Below are positions 27,221-35,850 of a stretch of 36,009 nucleotides of DNA, piece after piece. The notes below the pieces were generated by a model. The model did not search any database, was not told the DNA's origin, and saw only the letters and a program-made list of their open reading frames with translations. Positions within the stretch are counted from its first letter, which is position 1; each line of letters begins with the position of its first letter. The position numbers and the translations under genes are program-made. The stretch spans positions 1 to 36,009 of the forward strand of contig JAFOCI010000009.1 in assembly GCA_017381365.1 (NCBI GenBank), read 5' to 3'. Source of the DNA: Treponema sp. (GTDB taxonomy: Bacteria; Spirochaetota; Spirochaetia; Treponematales; Treponemataceae).

Positions 27221-27559
27221 TTATTCTATTAACAGTTTTATATTATCTACAACAGAATTAATTTCCTCTTCTGTTGCTTTTTCTATAAAATTGCAGTTTC
27301 TTTGTCTATAATCAAGATTTTTTATCTGATCACTCAAAATACAGCCGTTGATAGAATGATTTTCCAATACAATTTCAAAAGGATAACCTTTTATATGTCT
27401 TGTGATAGGGCAGAATAAAGCAAGACCGATTTTTTGATTGTATTTTTTCTGAGAGATGCAAATTGCAGGACGACGACCTTTTTGTTCGTGTCCAGTCTGT
27501 GGGTCAAAGTCAAGCCAGACTAAATCGCCTTTTTCTGGAGTATAATTTGATGCTACCAT
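27221..27559 (-). CDS. mazF: MazF/PemK-type endoribonuclease toxin
   Basis: 112 aa, normal for MazF. YTPEKGDLVWLDFDPQTGHEQKGRRPAIC contains the conserved GD-W-hydrophobic strand and the GHEQKGRRPA loop with the catalytic Arg. FCPITRHIKGYPFEI carries the conserved PIT motif and Thr. It cleaves mRNA at short sequences. It overlaps mazE by 7 bp, so the two are translationally coupled. It ends 2 bp before attC-like site 3. Confidence 0.92.
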   Translation of the reverse strand: MVASNYTPEKGDLVWLDFDPQTGHEQKGRRPAICISQKKYNQKIGLALFCPITRHIKGYPFEIVLENHSINGCILSDQIKNLDYRQRNCNFIEKATEEEINSVVDNIKLLIE

Positions 27560-27786
27560 TCTTCATAGCCTACCGAACTGCCAGTTGATATTTCTGAATG
27601 AATGTTTTCTGAAGTAACCATATCCAGCATATCATCAAGAGTCTTTTTTTGAGGAAGAATTACTATTTTTCCTTTTTCAGCGATTACTTCAATTTTACTA
27701 CCGTTCTTTACATTGTTGTCTTTTGCCCAAAGTGACGGAATTCTAAAACCGAGGCTGTTACCCCATTTCTGAACTACAACTTCCAT
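27553..27786 (-). CDS. mazE: MazE-type antitoxin, AbrB-fold
   Basis: 77 aa from the ATG at 27786, which has GGAGG 7 nt upstream; the ATG at 27804 lies almost on the -10. MEVVVQKWGNSLGFRIP is the swapped-hairpin AbrB/MazE DNA-binding motif. The acidic C-terminus (SEISTGSSVGYEEW) should block the MazF active site. Promoter: TTGACA 18 bp from TATACT on the minus strand. Confidence 0.92.
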   Translation of the reverse strand: MEVVVQKWGNSLGFRIPSLWAKDNNVKNGSKIEVIAEKGKIVILPQKKTLDDMLDMVTSENIHSEISTGSSVGYEEW

Positions 27787-27809
27787 AATGCTACCTCCAT
27801 ACATTAAGT

Positions 27810-28469: not shown

Positions 28470-28766
28470 TTATGCATACGCATAAGTTTTTATTTCTTCT
28501 AACTGTGGTGCAAGTTCTATCTTTGCGTTTCTTATATCAATGTCATCCTGTAAGGACATAAAATAACCGTCAGATAATCCGAAAAATTTTGCCAAGCGTA
28601 AAGATGTATCTACAGTTATCTTTCTGCGGTTATGAAGAATATCCTGAATGCGGGAAGTAGGCACATTTATTTCCTGTGCAAGTTTATATGCAGAAATTCC
28701 AAGTGGAATAAGGAATTCTTCACTGAGGATTTCCCCAATTGTTGGTGTTTCGATAAAATCAGACAT
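28470..28766 (-). CDS. higA: HigA-type antitoxin, VapI-like
   Basis: 98 aa. IGEILSEEFLIPLGISAYKL and AQEINVPTSRIQDILHNRRKI form the HigA helix-turn-helix, with the VapI-type TVDTSLRLAKFFGLSDGYFMSLQ following. It represses its operon and neutralises the toxin encoded 61 bp upstream. AGGAGC precedes the ATG. It is a different subfamily from the HigA at 25716, so the array carries two unrelated higBA pairs. Confidence 0.92.
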   Translation of the reverse strand: MSDFIETPTIGEILSEEFLIPLGISAYKLAQEINVPTSRIQDILHNRRKITVDTSLRLAKFFGLSDGYFMSLQDDIDIRNAKIELAPQLEEIKTYAYA

Positions 28767-28827
28767 AGTTTGCTCCTATTAAACTCCACGTTAGTGGTCG
28801 CACATGGATGTGATTTCTTTTACATTC

Positions 28828-29109
28828 CTAGTGGTAATCCACAATCTCTACATCGTAATAATGTCCGTCTTTTTCTGTAAAACAGATACACCACTGATCA
28901 TTTATGCGGATTGAATGCTGTCCTTTTTTCTCCCCGACAAGCTGCTCAAGGTGATTGCTTGGCGGAACTCGTAAATCTTCCAGACACTTTGCATTATCTA
29001 TCATCATCAGTTTTCTCAACGCAACTTTCTGAATTGTACTCGGAAGTCTCTTTGAAAACTTCTGGTTATAGATAAGTTCTGTTTCTTTATCCGCAAAACT
29101 CTTTATCAT
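28828..29109 (-). CDS. higB: HigB-type RelE-superfamily toxin
   Basis: 93 aa, the standard size for HigB. MIKSFADKETELIYNQKFSKRL and LEQLVGEKKGQHSIRINDQWCICF, followed by DVEIVDYH, are the classic family blocks. The QHSIRIN-WRI-like strand holds catalytic basic residues. It is an mRNA interferase. It has the best promoter in the window: TTGACA, 17 bp, TATAAT, then 6 bp to the ATG, so a leaderless mRNA is expected. Confidence 0.93.
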   Translation of the reverse strand: MIKSFADKETELIYNQKFSKRLPSTIQKVALRKLMMIDNAKCLEDLRVPPSNHLEQLVGEKKGQHSIRINDQWCICFTEKDGHYYDVEIVDYH

Positions 29110-29401: not shown

Positions 29402-30097
29402 GCCTGAAATTCGAGTTTCATTAAGAATTTACAAAAAAAGCGTAAATCTTTAAAATTTTAATCACCACAAAAAAAATCAAAAAGAGTTACGCTTATGTAT
29501 GAACAAATTTACAACTTAACCAGCATGTTTTTCAGGAGCCTTAAAGGAAAATTGATGTATGAATTCCTTATTTCAAAGTTCAATGGAAAGCGTGGGCCTA
29601 AAAGACAATTGAGCCTTGAGCAGATTGTCGCGCTGAACATCTACAGATTTCATTTCAAAATGGGAGATCTGAAAAATTATCATAAAATGATAAAAGAACT
29701 GATGAGTGACAAAGTTCCAAATCTCCCGAATTATGAAAATTTCATGAAGGCAACAAATAAATCGACTGTATTTATCCTTGCATTTATGAACTTCCTGATG
29801 GAAATGAACAGGAAAAAAGAATCTGAAATACATTACATGGATTCTACACCAATAACAGTCTGCATGAATCATAAAATTTACTCTCATAAAGTAACAAAAG
29901 GCATTGCAAGAAGAAGCAAATCTACAAAAGGATGGTGGTACGGATTCAAAATGAGCGGAATCTGCAATGAACAGGGCGATTTTGAAAACATCATTTTCAG
30001 TTATGCAAATATTGCAGCTTATATGATTAACCGCAATCTGGATTTTTATCAAAACTTTTTCAGATTACGGTTAATTTAGAAAACTCGAATTTCGGGC
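29402..30097 (+). mobile_element. IS982-type element 1, internally deleted
   Basis: Terminal inverted repeats: GCCTGAAATTCGAGTTT at the left, AAACTCGAATTTCGGGC at the right. TATTTA flanks both sides (29396-29401 and 30098-30103) as a probable target duplication. It carries a transposase gene missing its central third. It abuts the toxN stop codon. Confidence 0.85.
29495..30079 (+). pseudogene. IS982-family transposase, central deletion
   Basis: 194 codons. The N-terminal domain and the first DDE block are intact: IHYMDSTPITVCMNHKIYSH and GIARRSKSTKGWWYGFKM, both hallmarks of IS982. After FENIIFSYANI the frame jumps to AAYMINRNLDFYQNFFRLRLI, the C-terminus. The missing middle, with the second Asp and the Glu, is present in element 2 at 35.4 kb. 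In the intact sequence the joint lies between two ATTGCTG words, so short-repeat deletion is likely. Still in frame, but catalytically dead. Confidence 0.88.
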
Positions 30098-30588
30098 TAT
30101 TTACTTTTGTATTCTCTACATTTTACTTCAAGTAATTTAAAATCATTGCAACGCTGGCTCAACTTTGATTTTCCGTCGTTTGTCATCTTGTGCTCATATA
30201 CGGCTTTTGCATTGCTAATTATAATCTCTGATTTTTGCTTGATGATACGGATTTCATTGTTAAGCAAAGTCTTGTACTGACAGTTTTGCTCCGTATTCGG
30301 ATTTTTTAGTGAATATACGCCGCCCGGAACCGGGAACATATTGTTCAGGTTCAGCACCGCCATATCACCGATTTTTATAAAATCAATAGTTTCACTTAAT
30401 CGTTTATGTTTTGGTTTAAATGATGAAAGCGGTGCAAAATATTTCATTTCATTAATCTCAAAAAGAATACCAATATATTTCCTTGAATGCTTCTGAGTGA
30501 TTTTTGCGTTCTTAAACAAGTGCTCAGAAAATTGGGAGAGAAAATTTATATAATTTTCATCGATTTCATAAAAAAGTAATTTTTCCAT
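30097..30588 (-). CDS. toxN: ToxN/AbiQ-family type III toxin (endoribonuclease)
   Basis: 163 aa, the size of ToxN. Family blocks: LLFYEIDENYINFLSQF at the start, HSRKYIGILFEINEMKYFAPLSS, AVLNLNNMFPVP and YKTLLNNEIRIIKQKSEII, ending with DFKLLEVKCREY. ToxN is a MazF-fold RNase held inactive by repeated pseudoknot RNA and often acts in phage abortive infection. The start is the ATG at 30588, directly after a terminator hairpin; the frame open to 30636 crosses that terminator. An RNA gene with its own promoter lies just upstream, as in toxIN. The stop codon overlaps the end of IS982 element 1. Confidence 0.9.
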   Translation of the reverse strand: MEKLLFYEIDENYINFLSQFSEHLFKNAKITQKHSRKYIGILFEINEMKYFAPLSSFKPKHKRLSETIDFIKIGDMAVLNLNNMFPVPGGVYSLKNPNTEQNCQYKTLLNNEIRIIKQKSEIIISNAKAVYEHKMTNDGKSKLSQRCNDFKLLEVKCREYKSK

Positions 30589-30591
30589 AAT

Positions 30592-30628
30592 AAAAAAAAC
30601 GAGGCCGTAAGAAAACTTACGACCTCCG
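30592..30628 (-). terminator. Terminator between antitoxin RNA and toxN
   Basis: The stem GAGGTCGTAAG/CTTACGGCCTC with a 4-nt loop is followed by eight T, ending 3 bp before the toxN ATG. In type III systems such a leaky terminator sets the ratio of antitoxin RNA to toxin mRNA. Confidence 0.9.
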
Positions 30629-30663
30629 TATAACACTCGCGATTAAAGGCGCGATTTCCTTAT
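30592..30663 (-). ncRNA. toxI: Short ToxI-like antitoxin RNA (single pseudoknot unit)
   Basis: Transcribed on the minus strand from a strong promoter and ended by the terminator before toxN, about 70 nt in all. Before the terminator, the order AAGG (30661-30658), CGCG (30653-30650), CCTT (30649-30646), CGCG (30641-30638) allows AAGG-CCTT and CGCG-CGCG pairing, an H-type pseudoknot as in ToxI. Known ToxI and AbiQ antitoxins carry two to six tandem 35-36-nt repeats; here I see only one unit, with a short internal AATCGCG duplication. Confidence 0.7.
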
Positions 30664-30669
30664 GCTTTG

Positions 30670-30698
30670 AATATAATGCAGAACCAGAGAGAAGTCAA
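30670..30698 (-). promoter_or_regulatory. Promoter of the antitoxin RNA
   Basis: TTGACT (30693-30698), a 17-bp spacer and TATATT (30670-30675) on the minus strand. It lies 33 bp past the WYL gene stop, so toxIN has its own promoter. Confidence 0.85.
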
Positions 30699-30731
30699 GT
30701 GAAGGTTTGAAGTTTGATGTTATTAACATTC

Positions 30732-31757
30732 TCAATCAAAAATCCCATTAACTCGTTTTATCATAGCTTCTACCGTCAATTTCCAGTTATCAACAAACCA
30801 ATCTGGAGAAATAGGAACGGCATGAGATCCTTGTGATAGAATCCATTCCATCACTCTGAGAGTTTGAGTTGAAGAAAACTCTACACGAGTTCTCTCTTCT
30901 TCTTCAAAATTCGTGACTTTCTGATTATCTGCTAAAATCCTTTCTTTGACGATTTCTCTGGCGTCGTTATATAAATCAATTACAAAATCTACAGCTTTAT
31001 CGCTCATAAAGATTCCGAACTTACCGCCACCACAGCGAGACGAAAAATCAAAATCTTCCGGTAAATCAAAGTGTTCTGAAGTAACTTCAAGATTTTTGAT
31101 TCTGCTTAAAGAAAAAATCCGCTCTGCATTTCGTTCATAAGAATATCCAAAAATGAAGCATGAACCGTCATCAAAAAGAAATTGATAAGGAGCAAGTTTT
31201 CTATGAGATGTTTCTGTATTCCAGCGACCGTTATAATCAAACTCAACTACATAGTCATTGCGGATTGCTTCAAGAAATTTTTTCCAGACTATTTCATCAA
31301 TATTTACTTTGGGGACTGGTGCAACAGCAATTCGTTTTAAAAGTGAACTTTTTCCAACTCCTTGTGTATCTGTTACGAAGTTGATAGCATCAGAAATCGA
31401 GTTATAAATCGGGTTTCCCTCAAAACTTGAAAGAAGCGTCTTGGCGGCAGAAAGATAAAACACATCTTCCGTGGAAATATTATTCAAGGCAAAATCCCAT
31501 TTTTCATCAAAATAATAATACCCGCCTTTCTCCCTGTCAAACTCGAGCGGCGCATGAAAATATGTTCGGAGCAAATCGATATCACGGTAAATCGTCGCTT
31601 CTCCAACCTTACTATAACCAGTCTGTTCACAGTATAGCTTTTGGAGCCTTGGAACATCTGGATACATTCCAGCCTTAATTGCGTTGTGAATGATAATGAG
31701 ACGTTCCAGCATCTTTTTATTAAGAGTACGTTCTGGGGGATTTAACTTCTGCTTCAT
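30732..31757 (-). CDS. WYL-domain transcriptional regulator
   Basis: 341 aa. N-terminal winged helix: LERLIIIHNAIKAGMYPDVP, YSKVGEATIYRDIDLLRTYF. A WYL domain starts near 165 (VVEFDYNGRWNTETSHRKLAPYQFLFDDG) and continues SCFIFGYSYERNAERIFSLSRI with the arginines of the ligand groove. A C-terminal WCX part follows. WYL regulators often control phage-defence and stress genes through nucleic-acid or nucleotide ligands. The -10 TATAAT is 6 bp before the ATG, so the mRNA is leaderless. The upstream CTATC-N7-GATAG motif recurs before two other operons nearby, suggesting autoregulation and local control. toxIN follows directly. Confidence 0.9.
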   Translation of the reverse strand: MKQKLNPPERTLNKKMLERLIIIHNAIKAGMYPDVPRLQKLYCEQTGYSKVGEATIYRDIDLLRTYFHAPLEFDREKGGYYYFDEKWDFALNNISTEDVFYLSAAKTLLSSFEGNPIYNSISDAINFVTDTQGVGKSSLLKRIAVAPVPKVNIDEIVWKKFLEAIRNDYVVEFDYNGRWNTETSHRKLAPYQFLFDDGSCFIFGYSYERNAERIFSLSRIKNLEVTSEHFDLPEDFDFSSRCGGGKFGIFMSDKAVDFVIDLYNDAREIVKERILADNQKVTNFEEEERTRVEFSSTQTLRVMEWILSQGSHAVPISPDWFVDNWKLTVEAMIKRVNGIFD

Positions 31758-35309: not shown

Positions 35310-35850
35310 TCTGAATTTCGAGTTTAGTTGAGAATTTACAAAAAAAGCGTAAATCTTTAAAATTTTAATTACCCAAAAAATCAAAAAGAGTTACGCTTAT
35401 GTATGAACAAATTTACAACTTAACCAGCATGTTTTTCATTTTGAAAACATCATTTTCAGTTATGCAAATATTGCTGACTGTAAAATCGCAGAAAAACTTG
35501 CAGAAGTTGTAAAGGGGACAATATTTGCAGATGCAGGGTATTTACAGAAAAAAGATGTTTTGAAAAGAATGGAAGAAAAGGAAATCAAATTTGAAGCTGC
35601 TCCAAGAAAAAATATGAACAGACTTATGAGCCGTTTTGAATGCTATCATATCAAGCACAGAAGCATCATTGAATTCGACTGGGGAACGCTGAAAAATAAC
35701 TTTCAGCTTGAATATCATAAGGCACGAAGTATTGTCGGTATGTTCCGGCACTTTTTCTATAGCATTGCTGCTTACATGATTAACCGCAATCTGGAATTTT
35801 ATCAAAACGTTTTCAGATTGCGGTTAATTTAGAAAACTCGAATTTCAGGC
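35309..35850 (+). mobile_element. IS982-type element 2, N-terminal deletion
   Basis: Left end GTCTGAATTTCGAGTTT, right end AAACTCGAATTTCAGGC, the same family as element 1. No convincing target duplication. Its start overlaps the stop codon of the 34788 gene. Confidence 0.85.
35399..35832 (+). pseudogene. IS982-family transposase, N-terminal part deleted and frameshifted
   Basis: The first 12 codons (MYEQIYNLTSMF...) are identical to element 1, then a deletion joins TTTTTC to ATTTTGAAAAC and shifts the frame, giving a stop near 35512. The remaining frame keeps the middle and end: ADCKIAEKLAEVV, FADAGYLQKKDV (second Asp), CYHIKHRSIIEFDWGTLKNN (Glu) and AAYMINRNLEFYQNVFRLRLI. The two pseudogenes together cover the whole transposase. 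Confidence 0.88.

Follow-up and report, generated by a model that had tools for sequence, protein, structure and literature searches.

A ToxIN-type locus with a single predicted antitoxin unit in Treponema

A tandem repeat array is described as the hallmark of type III toxin-antitoxin systems and serves as a criterion in searches for them (PMC8860590, PMC5086642), so loci with one unit would be filtered out by design. The locus described here raised the question of whether one antitoxin unit can suffice for a toxin of the ToxN family. It lies in a stretch of Treponema sp. DNA of 36,009 nt (the whole stretch that was analysed, hereafter the window), a 36-kb contig of a genome of 99 contigs that is about 93% complete.

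Layout of the locus and the ToxN protein

The features of the locus are shown in Table 1.

Table 1. Features of the ToxIN locus in the window
Feature	Position	Strand	Basis or detail
ToxIN locus	30097-30663	minus	promoter, one unit, terminator and toxN all on the minus strand
Predicted ToxIN promoter, -35 hexamer TTGACT	30698-30693	minus	consensus scan
-10 hexamer TATATT	30675-30670	minus	consensus scan; 17-nt spacer to -35
ToxI gene, one antitoxin unit	30663-30627	minus	predicted start A30663 to pre-terminator junction
H-type pseudoknot	30661-30637	minus	covariation
Stem S1 AAGG/CCTT, 4 bp	30661-30658 with 30649-30646	minus	
Stem S2 TCGCG/CGCGA, 5 bp	30654-30650 with 30641-30637	minus	
Tail GTGTTATACG	30636-30627	minus	
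3' junction TTATACGG, predicted single ToxN cut site	30633-30626	minus	likeness to sister-group junctions
Intrinsic terminator, 11-bp stem-loop (30626-30601) and T8 (30599-30592)	30626-30592	minus	hairpin about -16.7 kcal/mol
toxN, 163 aa	ATG 30588, stop ends 30097	minus	PF13958 profile; ToxN/AbiQ-family endoribonuclease toxin

The promoter resembles the sigma-70 type, and six bases separate its -10 hexamer from ATAAGG in the window sequence. At least 9 of 12 promoter consensus matches were present at the expected place in 91 of 96 related loci, against 8% of shuffles; this comparison covered 96 of 98 loci, the two without an anchor being left out, and the stricter script used for it replaced a first version with loose anchors. 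The first stem began 7-10 nt past the -10 hexamer in 92 of the 96 loci, whatever their unit number, so that the 5' end of the first unit would be made without a cut. Promoter consensus score was unrelated to unit number (10.11 of 12 for one unit, 10.08 for three) and so gave no hint of compensation for fewer units. DNA similarity between the window and the other loci of subgroup A, to which its unit belongs, set in at 30663 for 6 of the 10 distinct loci; for the remaining 4 it began 13-36 nt earlier. The similarity stopped near the toxN stop codon. Transcription would be expected to start at A30663, 2-3 nt before the first stem. The promoter may be strong and the terminator leaky, as the original prediction described them, to judge from their sequences.

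The toxN gene was as well supported as had been claimed, with a PF13958 match of 1.5e-47 and 162.1 bits (cut-off 25), an uninterrupted frame and a ToxN fold. PADLOC named the toxin AbiQ (7.8e-35), and NCBIfam gave no match to the window ToxN at 0.001. The closest solved sequences were ToxN (4ato, 2xd0, 7d8o) and AbiQ (4glk), and the same four entries were the structure matches with E up to 0.001 for the AlphaFold model (pLDDT 85.5, pTM 0.83). Its nearest named relatives were from Treponema, and no relative was found among viral contigs.

The predicted catalytic residues R36, S55, S56 and K58 were present in 17 of 17 ToxN proteins of subgroup A and its sister subgroup B; those of ToxN-Ec are K33, T52, S53 and K55 (PMC8860590). 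W57 and Q117 are reported as required for ToxN-Ec toxicity (PMC8860590); the corresponding positions in the window ToxN are K60 and E112. Since most Treponema groups likewise read K and E there, these two residues are not tied to unit number. The group K relatives (L087-L090) carried Thr at the position of catalytic Lys55 in 4 of 4 proteins. Two database ToxN entries (P0001, P0066) start upstream with sequence that reads like translated terminator (window 30589-30636) and a third (P0095) with sequence that reads like translated ToxI RNA; these upstream starts are likely false.

The single pseudoknot unit in Treponema and its family

The original prediction of one H-type pseudoknot unit between promoter and terminator was borne out, with both stems paired. 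S1 was found as predicted, while S2, which had been given as CGCG/CGCG with 4 bp, gained one more pair. When the 43-nt leader was shuffled by dinucleotides, 36 of 3000 shuffles gave an equally strong pseudoknot; taken alone, the window pseudoknot is only mildly unusual, and the case rests on the comparison with relatives. Among the 16 distinct units compared from groups A, B, C and E, all 144 pair cells were standard pairs (reached by 0 of 2000 shuffles) and 7 of the 9 stem pairs showed double-sided changes (a count reached by 79 of 2000 shuffles), both on a hand segmentation of the units that biases the test towards structure. The hand segmentation replaced a MAFFT alignment in which S1 and S2 were misplaced between families. 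Within subgroup B, one S2 pair had changed from G-C to A-T in three loci (L026, L045, L049). The automatic pseudoknot finder counted too few units in several families, among them groups F and G with 1-2 of 3, and put some promoters and terminators in the wrong place; the unit numbers used in the tree below were assigned by eye.

Tandem Repeats Finder at a score of 30 returned no rows for 30560-30760, and the published tandem-array criterion for a type III locus does not describe the window ToxIN. Rfam gave no ToxI match at gathering or relaxed thresholds.

PF13958 was searched for in the genus, where 83 of 196 genomes had a match, and in the family, where 93 of 274 did. Sequence upstream of toxN was compared for 98 distinct loci (106 with duplicates; only 66 nt in L106), most fragmentary ToxN matches being left out. 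Loci with one, two and three units all occurred among the loci compared. The distance from the -10 hexamer to the terminator was 39-44 nt in the short one-unit groups, 58-67 nt in the one-unit groups D (long unit) and K, 70-82 nt with two units (112 nt in the long-unit locus L055) and 106-132 nt with three, in a list without group E and without rows whose terminator call was weak. Six rows fell outside these steps: five were misplaced by the script (103, 117, 123 and twice 86), and L040 (74) had a longer leader. Outside Treponema, two to four units were counted by eye in 6 of 7 loci (L109-L114), with an ambiguous count in the seventh, L115.

Subgroup A, with 11 loci, includes the window unit; its sister, subgroup B, has 9, and every locus of the two is one-unit. 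When the A/B unit together with its junction was used as a search pattern on the 274 genomes of the family, 33 of them yielded 34 copies in all; the reversed pattern had no hits. The pseudoknot was fully paired in 31 of the 34 copies, a count for which the search pattern itself fixed most letters. No two A/B units stood together in any copy. Six weak look-alikes lay within 150 nt of A/B units, two of them being the terminator itself, and in L133 and L138 a group-G unit directly preceded the A/B unit. With no copy doubled and an identical RNA in nine subgroup-A loci, the predicted one-unit antitoxin is real and conserved.

These counts bear on the possibility that a tandem array collapsed to one unit during assembly of short-read genomes, for which the 99 contigs of the window genome speak. 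Besides the lack of doubled units, a single unit with an uninterrupted toxN was present in the draft of the isolate Treponema zioleckii kT3 (L031, the same locus as L009), and the closed T. saccharophilum JCM 32279 plasmid pTS1 carried a single unit with a broken toxN (L108). Arrays can survive assembly, because L079, from a multi-contig genome, retained three identical unit cores. An assembly artefact is very unlikely, its chance being next to negligible. A full array elsewhere in the genome could also supply the antitoxin in trans, and something could be missing from an assembly of about 93%. The genome held one ToxN match and one copy of the unit motif at up to 2 mismatches, so the claim that no full array lies elsewhere held for this assembly, and 0 of 274 genomes had two copies on one contig; an array in trans is thus highly improbable.

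Some related loci showed further features. The three units of group E (L012, L013, L015, L041, L054, L056, L095) differed in sequence and shared the pseudoknot plan only. Group D (L050, L052, L053, L055, L057, L059, L064, L065, L067, L069, L094, L104) had one long unit, or two in L055, with an apparent hairpin inserted in the pseudoknot loop. L039, from a record labelled Alphaproteobacteria, has a Treponema-like ToxIN of group A whose toxN is interrupted, and is probably a misassigned contig.

The 38-nt RNA was identical in nine subgroup-A loci (all 36 pairs), in which ToxN identity was 72-99% and a median of 71% of synonymous sites differed. The median dN/dS was 0.08 over the 21 of 36 pairs with finite dS. 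The nine loci exclude L017 and L039, whose toxN was broken early and whose RNAs differed at two and one of 38 positions, respectively. The RNA of subgroup B varied (84-100% identity).

In a midpoint-rooted tree of 91 ToxN proteins, with a long-branch warning for L007, L040 and L087, the A+B clade comprised 17 proteins (support 97/94), all from one-unit loci, and its sister group had one, two or three units. The ToxN of L022, within the clade, was cut short by a stop at 139 aa. The tree excluded loci with a ToxN frame below 120 aa (L017, L039, L051, L092-L095) and the named loci L031-L038, which duplicate G-numbered loci. The character 'one unit' required at least 7 changes, 6 of them forced by supported branches, against a shuffled mean of 27.2. 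One-unit antitoxins were thus gained or lost several times; the one-unit lineages were A+B, D (long unit with inserted hairpin), K, L011, L091 and the Clostridiaceae locus L040, the last with a longer, less clear leader.

No Shine-Dalgarno sequence was seen before the window toxN, whose ATG lies 12 nt past the terminator stem. A Shine-Dalgarno match of -4 kcal/mol or lower preceded toxN in 0 of 20 A+B loci and in 45 of 71 others, and the start codon in A+B lay 9-13 nt past the terminator stem. Unlike A+B, the one-unit clade D kept its Shine-Dalgarno. A Mann-Whitney comparison ignores kinship, and an independent-pairs test was used beside it; in that test neither a missing Shine-Dalgarno (same direction in 2.7 of 5 pairs, opposite in 0.5; median p 0.5) nor a strong terminator (2.1 same, 1.0 other) was significantly associated with one unit. 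Automatic start codons were doubtful for L088-L091 and some loci of groups F and J.

The missing ribosome-binding site would fit a decayed system, with an array reduced to one unit, an RNA that has lost its neutralising activity and a toxN kept silent for lack of that site. The condition of toxN would also fit: it was interrupted in 4 of 20 A+B loci of the first set (L017, L022, L039, L051), and among the 34 family copies it was broken, partial or absent in 15 (broken or partial in 5, absent in 10). Against decay stand the low dN/dS, the catalytic residues kept in every A+B protein and an RNA identical despite near-saturated synonymous sites. Decay is accordingly regarded as quite improbable, and a functional one-unit antitoxin as the better reading.

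Neighbouring genes and copies without toxN

The original prediction noted a WYL regulator directly upstream. The gene is present at 30732-31757, but a WYL match occurred in only 3 of the 106 loci compared, a set that includes 8 duplicates and many loci with less than 1.5 kb of upstream flank. The gene was rejected as a ToxIN component, two of the three WYL loci having a different ToxIN subgroup behind the same gene. In the window this WYL gene and promoter are followed by a group-A ToxIN; in L026 and L045 a group-B ToxIN takes that place, which looks like a swap of the cassette. Two further toxin-antitoxin pairs, MazEF (27221-27804) and HigBA (28470-29109), adjoin ToxIN, giving three pairs within 3.5 kb. 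An internally deleted IS copy with inverted ends, identified by eye (29404-30096), abuts the toxN stop codon, and a second transposase piece (35560-35832) lies near the contig end.

Of the 34 A/B copies, 19 carried a toxN gene, three of them with an internal stop (G042, G033, G112:C14); the 10 counted as toxin-free gave no tblastn match to toxN in the flanking DNA that was retrieved. Eight of the 10 toxin-free copies lay just behind a gene. In L128 (G060:C167) and L143/L120 (G113:C11), a unit and terminator lacking toxN lay 16 nt past the stop codon of groEL (Cpn60, 2.7e-63). The 76 nt from stop codon to terminator were identical in these copies, while 36% of groEL synonymous sites differed (dS 0.49, 95 codons) and the DNA beyond the block was unlike between the two species; a recent exchange of just this block is possible. 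Both PF13958 matches of the genome with the second copy (G113, about 99% complete) belonged to other groups, E and J. Toxin-free units lay behind a T5orf172 gene in L119 and L145 (G157, G064) and behind other genes in L136 and L137. The promoter was kept at its usual distance in L139 and L146 (9 of 12 consensus matches); the same score was reached in L136 and L137 at other distances, 14 and 3 nt.

Some copies were composite. The toxin-free L133 and L138 were mosaics of a group-G and a group-A unit, and in L159, L163 and L166 (G153, G148, G151) one gene carried at its 3' end a group-G and a group-A unit with a group-A terminator. The mosaics were rejected as conserved antitoxins, because one S2 pair of the A unit was broken in all three genomes. 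L170 (G153:C16:3134-3158) held two group-G units and one group-D unit with a group-D terminator, and no toxN by tblastn. Most or all of toxN was lost from the group-G arrays L154, L158, L167, L172 and L173. Over the wider set of group-G arrays (these five with L161 and L165), toxN was truncated, missing or, in L165, past the contig end; genome G048 holds three of these arrays.

Copies of this kind raise the alternative that pseudoknot and terminator act chiefly in cis, attenuating or simply terminating toxN transcription, instead of serving as a trans-acting antitoxin. The toxin-free copies do lie behind genes whose transcripts the terminator would serve, and the terminator stem was still paired in the mosaics L133, L138 and L166 with one S2 pair broken. 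A terminator, however, needs neither pseudoknot nor junction; S2 has changed on both sides, groEL copies included; and the multi-unit relatives share the unit architecture. A cis element is therefore considered unlikely, and the trans-acting antitoxin is retained as the reading for the window locus.

Anti-addiction antitoxins exist in type II systems, and the toxin-free copies, if selected, would be their RNA counterpart. They could be RNA anti-addiction elements or reused terminators; for the mosaics with a broken S2 pair themselves, the evidence would favour reuse of the terminator. It is proposed tentatively, as a possible but doubtful extension, that the ToxI unit has turned into a free-standing module in Treponema, with one unit enough for a whole toxin-antitoxin lineage and with toxin-free copies, in 3' UTRs such as that of groEL and in composite arrays of units from different ToxIN families, that would confer RNA immunity against incoming ToxN. 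A literature search, mostly at index level, found no report of toxin-free ToxI in bacteria.

Predicted mechanism and comparison with known type III systems

The locus is of ToxIN type, with a one-unit RNA that is predicted to be cut once by ToxN at TTATACGG and probably silences ToxN as a free single unit. ToxN, and not another RNase, would make this 3' cut. In the three-unit sister group E, the unit-to-unit junction was TTATACGAGG in 3 of 7 loci (L041, L054, L056) and TTACACGAGG in the other 4; as the 3' side of the single unit equals the internal junctions of some of these arrays, one ToxN cut there would free it from the terminator. Most transcripts would stop at the terminator and few would read through into toxN, leaving more antitoxin than toxin mRNA. 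With one unit per transcript, the antitoxin excess would come from termination together with weak translation of toxN, the latter expected from the absent Shine-Dalgarno and a start codon right after the terminator. The missing Shine-Dalgarno may thus offset a lower antitoxin yield. When transcription halts, for example during phage infection, the smaller antitoxin reserve would be exhausted sooner and ToxN would be freed.

The original prediction supposed that one unit may imply a complex other than a closed trimer. No support was found for this, since in ToxIN-Pa the tandem transcript is described as being cut to single 36-nt units before assembly (PMC5772629), so that three separate single-unit transcripts could build the same ring. 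The units would bind ToxN head to tail, three transcripts giving one 3:3 ring, or a ring of another size. Sufficiency of few units has precedents: one CptI unit, cloned on its own and overexpressed, gave full antitoxic activity (PMC4627078), and 1-1.5 ToxI repeats are reported as sufficient (PMC4147584). Counting against it, a review gives minima of 2.5 repeats for ToxI-Pa and at least 1.8 for antiQ (PMC5086642).

A literature search, mostly at index level and with coverage apart from the 2012 classification (doi 10.1093/nar/gks231), found no report of a natural one-unit ToxIN. Reported numbers are 1.9-3.4 repeats in 45 gut type III loci (PMC6315513), 3-5.6 in E. coli clusters (PMC8860590), and 5.5, 2.9 and 2.8 in ToxI-Pa, ToxI-Bt and antiQ, respectively (PMC5086642). 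A natural one-unit lineage beside two- and three-unit relatives in one genus would make the role of repeat number testable. Unprocessed arrays have been modelled as serving complex turnover in ToxIN-Pa (PMC5772629); the need for them, and a faster phage response with fewer units, could be tested with this lineage.

The ToxIN systems of Pectobacterium atrosepticum, Bacillus thuringiensis and E. coli are like the window locus in toxin family, fold, the order promoter-RNA-terminator-toxN and, with conservative swaps, catalytic residues, but they carry 2.9 to 5.6 repeats against one here (PMC5086642, PMC8860590). Their reported cut sites are A-rich (AA^AU, GAA^AU, AAA^AA; PMC8860590), whereas the window junction is UUAUACGG. 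AbiQ/antiQ of Lactococcus has a ToxN-like toxin, whose name PADLOC gives to the window toxin, but differs in the repeats that antiQ carries (2.8) and needs (at least 1.8; PMC5086642). CptIN of Eubacterium rectale resembles the window locus in that one cloned unit neutralises when overexpressed (PMC4627078) and in a distant form of the same fold (4rmo); its natural locus, in contrast, has about two repeats and forms a 2:2 complex, and its toxin is clearly further from the window toxin (TM 0.50 against 0.72-0.77). In AbiF/RCd22 of Clostridioides difficile an RNA also binds and neutralises its toxin without a long array, but the toxin is of another family and the RNA has two abiF motifs (PMC12373285). 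The pseudo-ToxI of PhiTE, a ToxI-like sequence without its own toxN, recalls the toxin-free Treponema copies; it is phage-borne, however, with 1.5 repeats and no full unit, and needed expansion to work (PMC3475682). By toxin, fold, pseudoknot and gene order the window locus is ToxIN, and, lacking an array, it is classed as a variant that would work like ToxIN without one.
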